A stretch of DNA of 32,354 nucleotides from a virus, in the IMG/VR virus record IMGVR_UViG_3300022934_000092, positions 1 to 32,354 of that record; one strand, given 5' to 3'. The notes beneath the pieces were generated by a model that was given only the letters and a program-made list of their open reading frames with translations, was not told the DNA's origin and made no database searches. Both the position numbers and the translations under genes were made by a program. Of the stretch, positions 6,231 to 11,931 are shown one piece after another; the stretch's first letter is position 1, and each line of letters begins with the position of its first letter.

Positions 6231-6245
6231 ATGAAAAGGGGAATG

Positions 6246-6494
6246 ATGACTAATACAGAATGTATAAAACGTTATGGAGTAACACGGGCCAAAATGGCTG
6301 AATTATGTGGTGTTCACCCGCAAACCGTGGATAAATGGTTTATGGAAGATGGAGAAATACCGGCAAAATATTGTCCGTTGTTACGTTTAAAAATTGGCTT
6401 GCCTTTAAATATTCTTAACCCAACTGTTTTTAATGCTGATTGGGTTGCGTTTGAGGAAAATAAAAAAATTAATAAAACGTATGACGTTAACTAA
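6246..6494 (+). CDS. Small HTH regulator (Cro/YdaS-like)
   Basis: 82 residues. The segment TRAKMAELCGVHPQTVDKWF is a clear helix-turn-helix (GVHPQTV turn and recognition helix), followed by GEIPAKYCPLLRLKIGLPL, a pattern seen in YdaS/Cro-like phage repressors whose helix is followed by 'IPaeYc..le...g'. The start at 6246 (or ATG 6243) is preferred to 6231 because AAAAGGGG at 6234-6241 then serves as ribosome site. The palindrome 6194-6224 just upstream suggests autoregulation of the divergent promoters. It could act as the early switch; no CI-type second repressor is seen. Confidence 0.75.
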   Translation: MTNTECIKRYGVTRAKMAELCGVHPQTVDKWFMEDGEIPAKYCPLLRLKIGLPLNILNPTVFNADWVAFEENKKINKTYDVN

Positions 6495-6786
6495 TAGAAG
6501 TGTTTTAAAATTACGTGATGATGGATATTGTGCGCAAGTTGTGGAACGGTGGAATGCGTTTACAAAAACACGGCATGATTTATTTGGGTGTATTGATATT
6601 ATTGCAATTGGCCAGGGTAAAACATTAGCTGTACAAACCACATCAAAAACAAATATGAATGCGCGTATTAAAAAAATTGAAAATAATGAATATCTAAATG
6701 AAATGATACGTGCTAATTGGTGTATTTTAGTTCATGGTTGGTATAAGGAAAAAAATAGATGGAGGTGCAAAGAATTTGAATTTTAG
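6481..6786 (+). CDS. PD-(D/E)XK-like nuclease/resolvase-type protein
   Basis: 101 residues from ATG 6481, which overlaps the end of the regulator gene. The pattern LRDDGYCAQVVERW (E22), HDLFGCIDIIAI (D33, D39) and LAVQTTS resembles small phage proteins of the endonuclease/Holliday-junction-resolvase superfamily. The usual E-x-K is Q-T-T here (Q52). The family is common in marine phages and usually labelled hypothetical or resolvase. It may cleave branched DNA made by ERF/YqaJ, or be inactive because of the changed motif. A longer frame from 6433 would run through the regulator gene and lacks a ribosome site. Confidence 0.6.
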   Translation: MTLTNRSVLKLRDDGYCAQVVERWNAFTKTRHDLFGCIDIIAIGQGKTLAVQTTSKTNMNARIKKIENNEYLNEMIRANWCILVHGWYKEKNRWRCKEFEF

Positions 6787-6967
6787 CCGCAAAATGTGAG
6801 CGGGATAGAAAAAAACTGGGCGGGCTAGAGGTTGTGGAATAGGTAGCCACAAAGCGAGGGACGACCCCTGTTATAGCCAACCGTATTGGAGTTGTGCCAA
6901 CGGTTAGAAAGATGTTACTGGATACGCCGCGCAATTAGAACCCGTAAGGGTCTTTGCGTTTTTTTTT
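6787..6967 (+). ncRNA. Candidate structured RNA ending in intrinsic terminator
   Basis: About 180 bases without a coding frame, visibly richer in G and C than its flanks. Complementary arms are CCGC/GCGG (6787-6790, 6800-6803), GGCTA/TAGCC (6823-6827, 6874-6878) closing a multiloop that holds TTGTGG/CCACAA (6832-6837, 6847-6852) and GGG/CCC (6858-6867), then a hairpin AACCG-TTGG/CCAA-CGGTT (6879-6905), and last the terminator at 6930-6967. No known RNA family is recognised; it is not a tRNA. It could be a small RNA or a leader of the gene at 6992. Confidence 0.5.
6930..6967 (+). terminator. Intrinsic terminator with GNRA tetraloop
   Basis: CGCAA (6930-6934) pairs with TTGCG (6954-6958), then AG with CT and ACCC with GGGT, closing a GTAA tetraloop; nine T follow (6959-6967). 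This is a strong Rho-independent terminator on the plus strand located 24 bases before the next gene. Confidence 0.85.
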
Positions 6968-6991: not shown

Positions 6992-7420
6992 ATGGAAATG
7001 AAAGATGAATTTGATAAATTGTGGCAAGTAAATGACCGCAAGGTTAATAAACAGCAAGCATATAAGGCGTTTAAAAAAAATTACAAAGAATTTAAAAAAT
7101 ATTGTTTGCAAAATAAATGTAGTTTTGCCCAGGTTTATGAAAACTGGAAAGTTGCAGAATATAAAAGCAAAGATTTGTTAGATGAAGAGGGTAATGTTGA
7201 TAAAACAAAATTGCAATTTGTTTGCCATTTATCTACCTGGTTAAATGGTTGGCGTTGGGAAGATGAAATAATTGTTTTTGAATCAGAAGATGAAAAGTGG
7301 TTTAACAGTTATACCGGCATAATAGAAATGGGGGCAAGTATAGGTTTAATTTTTGATGAAGAAAAACAAACATTTCCAGAATTTAAAAAAGTAGTTTTTG
7401 CAAAAGTACCAAGGGAGTAA
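6992..7420 (+). CDS. Putative replication/helicase-loader-like protein
   Basis: 142 residues. The N-terminal half is helical and lysine-rich (KQQAYKAFKKNYKEFKKYC) and is followed by FVCHLSTWLNGWRWEDE. A 'xHLSTWLNxxxWED' block is frequent near the C-terminal part of phage and plasmid replication initiators and helicase loaders. The C-terminal 45 residues are acidic with hydrophobic strands. It follows the RNA/terminator region and precedes NinB. If it is a loader it would recruit host helicase, since no phage helicase is seen. Two in-frame ATGs (6992, 6998) are possible. Confidence 0.5.
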   Translation: MEMKDEFDKLWQVNDRKVNKQQAYKAFKKNYKEFKKYCLQNKCSFAQVYENWKVAEYKSKDLLDEEGNVDKTKLQFVCHLSTWLNGWRWEDEIIVFESEDEKWFNSYTGIIEMGASIGLIFDEEKQTFPEFKKVVFAKVPRE

Positions 7421-10106: not shown

Positions 10107-10349
10107 ATGAAAACAACCAAAGTAAGAACAAAGTTGTTAGGCCAAAAAAAACTAACAAAAAGAAATTTGTTTAGGTTAGTTCAAGGTTGGAAGCGGACTG
10201 GCGCAAGTATGAAATTAACCGCTGAGTTTTTGAGAATATATTTAGAAGAAAAGGTTTACAGAAATTCAGCCAAAACTGTACTTAAAATTTCTATTGCGGA
10301 AATAAAAAGAAGAATTAAAATTCTTAAAGAAATTGAAGCGGGTGTTTAA
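10107..10349 (+). CDS. Small basic helical protein
   Basis: 80 residues, strongly basic (MKTTKVRTKLLGQKKLTKRN...), mostly helical, ending in a Lys/Ile-rich helix (KISIAEIKRRIKILKEIEA). GGAAGGA at 10091-10097 is its ribosome site. The charge suggests nucleic-acid binding. It is preceded by the rod-like RNA candidate and its stop codon lies inside the terminator hairpin that follows. No family recognised. Confidence 0.65.
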   Translation: MKTTKVRTKLLGQKKLTKRNLFRLVQGWKRTGASMKLTAEFLRIYLEEKVYRNSAKTVLKISIAEIKRRIKILKEIEAGV

Positions 10350-10366
10350 TGCACCCGTTTTTTTTT
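10339..10366 (+). terminator. Intrinsic terminator
   Basis: CGGGTG (10339-10344) and CACCCG (10352-10357) form a perfect 6-base stem with a short loop, followed by nine T (10358-10366). The stem overlaps the end of the coding frame before it, and the next gene begins only 16 bases after the T tract. Confidence 0.88.
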
Positions 10367-11904: not shown

Positions 11905-11931
11905 GGGGTCTTTTATGACCCCTTTTTTTTT
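11905..11931 (+). terminator. Strong intrinsic terminator before late genes
   Basis: GGGGTC (11905-11910) and GACCCC (11917-11922) form a perfect stem with a TTTTAT loop followed by nine T (11923-11931). It lies about 60 bases downstream of the candidate promoter and 14 bases before the first late start codon. Confidence 0.92.

Follow-up and report, generated by a model that had tools for sequence, protein, structure and literature searches.

We describe a structured RNA, RNA A, that lies between a nuclease-like gene and a short replication gene in the virus record IMGVR_UViG_3300022934_000092 of IMG/VR. This record is 32,354 bases long, and its whole length is called the window here. RNA A occupies approximately positions 6787-6952 of the + strand, and it is a previously undescribed, well supported RNA family. 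Comparison of related sequences showed that selection acts on its structure and that the RNA is read from the + strand. Its probable role is in the onset of phage replication, as a control element or as a participant.

The early region of the window has a lambda-like layout. The leftward early genes are of the Erf and YqaJ types, and the rightward order is Cro-like HTH gene, nuclease-like gene, RNA A, replication gene, NinB, HNH and a Q-like gene (Table 1). The nuclease-like protein has relatives in at least 80 contigs, and the replication protein matches positions 174-250 of phrog_270 (length 383). GC content is 0.51-0.53 over positions 6800-6949 and 0.25-0.36 in most of the flanks, which agrees with the distinct base composition remarked on in the earlier note. 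No convincing reading frame was found within 6787-6967.

Two features elsewhere in the window were also observed. Two strong + strand terminator-like hairpins (10335-10361 and 11905-11922) lie inside the rightward gene run, where early or late transcription would need to read through them. The ORF at 759-1742, where the GC content of the record's start is highest, encodes a very glycine-rich product of 327 aa, perhaps a tail-tip or other structural protein.

Table 1. Coordinates of features in the window and in related loci
Feature	Record	Position	Strand	Description
Cro-like HTH gene	window	6231..6494	+	matches PHROG transcriptional repressor families; early rightward operon, upstream of RNA A
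Nuclease-like small protein, conserved	window	6481..6786	+	no family match; 79% identity in L002
Short replication protein gene	window	6992..7420	+	C-terminal domain only of initiator/primosomal proteins
H0, 5' hairpin	window	6787..6803	+	CCGC 6787-6790 / GCGG 6800-6803
P1, multiloop-closing	window	6819..6928	+	GGCG 6819-6822 / CGCC 6925-6928
P2	window	6823..6878	+	GGCTA 6823-6827 / TAGCC 6874-6878
P3 hairpin	window	6832..6852	+	TTGTGG 6832-6837 / CCACAA 6847-6852
P4 hairpin	window	6857..6869	+	AGG 6857-6859 / CCT 6867-6869
P5, 9-bp hairpin	window	6879..6905	+	AACCG/CGGTT + TTGG/CCAA
P6, small hairpin	window	6910..6919	+	AG/CT, loop ATGTTA
Pseudoknot 2 (PK2) 3' strand CGCAAT	window	6930..6935	+	pairs with P5 loop GTTGTG 6891-6896
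Pseudoknot 1 (PK1) 3' strand GGTC	window	6949..6952	+	pairs with GAC 6863-6865, P4 loop
Intrinsic-terminator-like hairpin + T9	window	6930..6967	+	GUAA loop, -11.8 kcal/mol
RNA B	L102	10087-10236	+	promoter-proximal rod, pattern match
RNA B	L103	1171-1313	-	promoter-proximal rod, pattern match
RNA B	L107	8847-8991	-	also in L108-L145
RF02932 (Betaproteobacteria-1 RNA)	L005	3764-3884		Rfam model match
RF02932 (Betaproteobacteria-1 RNA)	L007	4687-4807		Rfam model match
Type C, third candidate structured RNA	L003	4060-4290		same slot
Type C, third candidate structured RNA	L006	4005-4260		same slot
Type C, third candidate structured RNA	L008	3560-3815		same slot
Type C, third candidate structured RNA	L030	4303-4530		same slot

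A search with the replication protein revealed one close relative, L002, in which the RNA A stretch is conserved at the same place, and NinB as the query returned L002 only. The nuclease-like protein led to a second relative, L019, and the core pattern GTAGCC....AGCG.G.GA.GAC to L100, L102 and L103 in IMG/VR. A covariance model of the 119-nt core (R1) matched 41 IMG/VR contigs including the window, with E values from 1e-11 down to 1e-28. Of 91 further loci that carry related nuclease or replication genes, it matched none. Since the collections were searched by patterns and distant members were missed, 41 is a minimum count. By this model RNA A occurs once per contig, with no copy in the leftward operon, and in every case with neighbours read it lies on the same strand and in the same operon. 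A second, weak R1 match in L145 (E 0.01) was judged to be chance. We also rejected as chance the pattern matches in L105 (from genome contigs) and L106, where the RNA is absent around the motif; L011-L015, L017, L099 and L104 carry the motif with none of RNA A around it. All RNA A relatives are metagenomic contigs. DNA searches among cultured phages and plasmids returned no relative, the sampled bacterial genomes contained none, and none of 369 genomes from one class of a pseudomonad MAG was matched by the R1 and RF02932 models, which were run without a positive control.

RNA A is about 165 nt long and is built as a P1-P6 multiloop tied by two pseudoknots, with at least eight helices. On an alignment made blind to structure (A4), 36 pairs including both pseudoknots were scored; 92.3% of the cells are paired, and 24 of the 36 pairs show changes on both sides. 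The covariation score was 0.537, compared with 0.150 +/- 0.014 for shuffles and 0.04-0.16 for slid registers. In a MAFFT alignment that ignored structure, P1, P2, P3 and P4 were paired in 100% of cells, and both-sided changes were seen in 20/30 pairs over all helices (24/30 in the model-based alignment). PK1 and PK2 were spotted by eye and then counted on A4. Furthermore, the helices contain 26 G-U cells against 13 A-C cells, an excess that fits the + strand as the RNA and is supportive only. Free energy alone did not distinguish RNA A of the window from chance (z -0.74; 40/200 shuffles reached an equal or better energy); folding one sequence by itself would therefore not reveal the structure. 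The corresponding z-scores were also not significant for the RNAs found at the same position in L030 and L006, and single-sequence z-scores were excluded from the evidence.

The individual helices show how this pairing is maintained. The H0 stem covaries (CCGC/GCGG, CGCCC/GGGCG, AGCGT/ACGCT, CTGCAC/GTGTAG, CACAC/GTGTG, CGATGCGC/GCGTATTG), and a motif of the (N)AAA(U/A/C)GC type is conserved in its loop. P1 is fully paired in all 20 sequences, with double changes between AU and GC and between UA and CG. P2 is 100% paired with both-sided changes in 3/5 pairs, and P3 is 98-100% paired with both-sided changes in all scored pairs. P4 sits in a near-invariant block, AGCGAGGG..GACACCTG, and is paired in 100% of all sequences, with A-U/G-C changes; its loop holds the 5' strand of PK1. 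P5 is paired in 85.5% of cells of the model-based alignment, with both-sided changes in 7/9 pairs, and its loop (6890-6896) holds the 5' strand of PK2. P6 reads CCG/CGG, GGG/CCC, GAG/CTC or GCC/GGC in relatives; its central pair is 100% paired and changed on both sides in 10/20 sequences, and its outer pairs show register shifts in some sequences. The 3' strand of PK2 is formed by the six bases directly behind the 3' strand of P1. PK2 is paired in 96.7% of cells, with both-sided changes in 5/6 pairs (GTCAAG/CTTGAC, GCATGG/CCATGC, ATTGCG/CGCAAT, TTCTAG/CTAGAA), and PK1 in 97.5%. The pair neighbouring PK1 is C-G in 15 of 20 sequences, A-U in 3 and unpaired in 2 (C.U in the window, A.A in L002). 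Sequences other than those of L002, L019 and the window have a further 3' hairpin, P7. The RNA A copy in L125 (5028-5213) lacks 13 nt that are present in L110/L141, with the loss of parts of P3 and P4, and is either a defective copy or an assembly error.

These results bear out the earlier note, which had proposed from the letters alone a structured non-coding RNA between the two genes. It had named conserved pairing in homologous phages as the point on which the proposal could fail, and that pairing is kept, with compensatory changes. Its GGCTA/TAGCC arms correspond to P2 and its 9-bp hairpin to P5. All the elements that it named were found, and its estimate of at least five arm pairs is exceeded by the actual eight or more helices. 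The extent that it gave, 6787-6967, contains a real structured RNA, but the functional unit ends near 6952 and the two pseudoknots had been missed. It had also named no known phage RNA of this kind, and we likewise found no matching family: Rfam 15 at gathering score gave 0 matches for the window, L100, L102, L103, L019, L002, L107 and L133. At the weakest threshold the matches were chance snoRNA scores of 13-14 bits, and ARAGORN found 0 tRNA or tmRNA genes. The RF02932 model matched none of the A-bearing records searched, and only L005 and L007 among related phages.

A conserved element directly upstream of RNA A in L102 and L103, RNA B, is a second undescribed RNA and is pseudoknotted. Its pattern retrieved 41 contigs, in nearly all of which RNA A follows; RNA A stands directly after RNA B in 37 relatives. 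RNA B starts just behind a -10 box, contains the invariant segments TGTAG and GCCCATGCCAAGGG, and ends in AACCCC...GGGGTTTTTC, which resembles an intrinsic terminator. Its 5' strand forms a hypervariable pseudoknot helix with a loop: 19 sequences have 18 distinct helices, and the best helix of a sequence with itself averages 8.1 bp, compared with 5.2 for cross pairs. We also observed that the upstream AGACAAA and an inner ATAGACAG compete for one ATTTGTCT strand, an arrangement that looks like a switch. In these phages the leftward recombination genes are usually followed by a Cro-like gene, to which the nuclease-like gene or another gene may be added, and then by the promoter, RNA B, RNA A, small genes and short rep. 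In L134 and L130 the non-coding stretches after RNA B are not RNA A by the model; that of L134 still ends in TTGGTCTTTTTG, as RNA A does.

The slot before the short replication gene is filled by other RNAs in related phages. RF02932 lies between a phage HTH gene and the short replication gene in L005 and L007, behind a pseudoknotted rod with a U tract. RF02932 thus shares the slot with RNA A and differs in helix layout, with no sequence or model match between them. The type C candidate has the common sequence CACGATAG(C/T)A...GCG(T/A)GAACT, of which L030 has only part in common with L003, L006 and L008, and it has no Rfam match. RNA A, RF02932 and type C show no sequence resemblance to one another.

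We propose that RNA A is a cis-acting leader RNA that controls transcription into the replication operon, a reading that we rate first and hold tentatively. It is rated first because of its early-leader position, the terminator-like elements in RNA B and in RNA A of the window, the mutual exclusion of fold and terminator described below, and the parallel with putR. In these tailed phages RNA A belongs to the leader of the early rightward transcript and precedes the short replication gene. In the window, positions 6930-6967 hold a GC-containing hairpin directly before a T tract, as in an intrinsic terminator or attenuator (CGCAA-UUAGA-ACCC-GUAA-GGGU-CU-UUGCG-U9; hairpin CGCAA...TTGCG at 6930-6958, T9 at 6959-6967); a simple terminator scanner did not report it. 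Its stem uses CGCAA, the 3' strand of PK2, and GGGUC, the 3' strand of PK1, so the terminator and the RNA A fold are mutually exclusive. This overlap is the best mechanism hint for this phage. The terminator of the earlier note is present with its hairpin, GUAA loop and nine T, but it overlaps the pseudoknot strands and belongs to the window only. L002 and L019 have neither an equivalent hairpin nor a T tract, which indicates a local addition in the window phage. No conserved terminator was found in L002, L019, L114, L119, L121, L132 or L133, and only part of the remaining relatives have a T tract after RNA A.

RNA A would thus act in cis on the nascent transcript and control RNA polymerase elongation into the replication operon, and its likely form in the window phage is an attenuator. 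With RNA A folded and both its pseudoknots formed, the terminator hairpin would be deprived of the CGCAA and GGGTC strands, and the replication, NinB, HNH and Q-like genes would be transcribed. If this fold is blocked or does not form, transcription would stop at the T tract. Where relatives lack the T tract, the folded RNA may act on the polymerase itself, in the manner of HK022 put, or on translation of the adjoining gene. A ribosome-binding site and start (GGTCGTTCTATGGAG..ATG) lie about 10-20 nt past the RNA A 3' strand in L114, L119 and L132, so the RNA continues into the mRNA in part of the family. Control in cis is weakened by the restriction of the attenuator overlap to the window phage, and a put-like form of it by the single copy per genome and the lack of one in the leftward operon.

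The put RNA of HK022 is about 70 nt long with two stem-loops and occurs in two copies per genome, putL and putR, and putR lies about 270 nt behind PR (PMC9378689). Both put and RNA A are RNA elements of early phage transcripts, located a few hundred nt downstream of the early right promoter, and RNA A is proposed to act likewise in cis. In contrast to put, RNA A is a single-copy RNA of about 165 nt whose 8 helices include two pseudoknots; it is neither a ~70-nt element with two stem-loops nor repeated behind both early promoters. The two share no similarity in size or helix layout, and antitermination by RNA A, meaning the suppression in cis of termination and pausing that characterises put, is putative only.

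A structured leader also precedes the replication operon in phage P4, with its leader/CI RNA immunity, and in the rep leaders of IncI/IncB plasmids, where control is by transcription stop or a pseudoknot. The hypervariable complementary strands of RNA B recall these systems. Their likeness to RNA A and RNA B is one of arrangement, and any homology or antisense RNA would be putative.

The main rival, because of the short Reps, is that RNA A is an RNA component of the replication origin, which we consider rather unlikely. RNA A would form an R-loop or RNP near rep and recruit a short Rep that keeps a helicase-loading-type domain and lacks the N-terminal DNA-binding domain, so that the RNA replaces origin recognition. 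Wherever a slot RNA precedes rep, the encoded protein is short (122-168 aa) and matches initiators over their C-terminal part only. The N-terminal domain is absent from all 33 distinct Reps of this group (27 with RNA A, 2 with RF02932, 4 with type C), and no slot RNA was recognised for the 11 distinct long Reps that keep it. These loci have a common ancestry, and searches with Rep itself supplied several of them; the association therefore does not represent independent events. The link to short Reps is unexplained by a pure elongation-control role. It also fits an origin RNA that the same slot is filled by dissimilar RNAs in related phages, and that RNA A directly adjoins rep upstream in the window, L002, L019, L100 and L133. 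However, five short Reps have no recognised RNA (L146, L155, L010, L066 and L079; a sixth, L004, was left out), and GC skew, uninformative here as an origin map, does not switch at RNA A. We rejected a strict rule that a short Rep needs an RNA, given L146, L155 and L010. The ColE1 RNA II primer is a structured transcript upstream of a replication start, where the primosome works with no sequence-specific initiator, and as an origin component RNA A would stand in for origin recognition likewise. The likeness to RNA II is one of arrangement. What connects RNA A to an origin is its association with N-terminally short Reps; homology to RNA II, a cleavage or hybrid site, an R-loop, RNase H processing and replication dependence would all be putative for RNA A.

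Quite unlikely, in our view, is a trans-acting small RNA with the early promoter and its own terminator, which would regulate host or phage genes or block a defence. The compact independent fold and the T-rich stretches behind RNA A in the window and part of its relatives are consistent with such an RNA. It is weakened because terminators are missing from the seven relatives named above; moreover, genes begin directly behind RNA A, which lies in sense inside one operon wherever neighbours were read. We also regard as improbable a ligand- or protein-sensing leader, either a riboswitch or a Rep autoregulatory site, that would control rep translation and not transcription. Its place in the rep 5' leader of the five loci where it adjoins rep and the near-invariant unpaired segments of the P4 region would suit a sensor, but in many relatives RNA A is separated from rep by other small genes.

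L019 has an open frame through the RNA A region, and the window reads similarly apart from one TAG; gene decay was therefore tested. A decayed protein gene folding by chance is refuted by the even spread of differences between the window and L019 over codon positions (18/20/19) and by compensatory changes throughout, leaving it next to no probability. The frame has no start codon at its head and no protein relatives in Pfam, PHROGs or phages; the codon at which it stops is shared by the window and L002, and L002 has a 1-nt shift. The degraded gene that the earlier note had offered as its own counter-reading of 6787-6967 thus does not apply.

The slot before the short replication gene holds at least three structured or candidate structured RNAs in related phages, and RF02932, an orphan Rfam family, gains a genomic context there. 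We suggest, as an unlikely reading, a replication module whose phage initiator has had its origin-recognition domain replaced by a structured RNA. The origin would be defined by RNA, and the short Rep would work with interchangeable, unrelated early-transcript RNAs (RNA A, Betaproteobacteria-1 and type C). Either mechanism, transcription control or origin RNA, is directly testable. RNA A adds a two-pseudoknot RNA family to a part of the phage genome where RNA is rarely sought.
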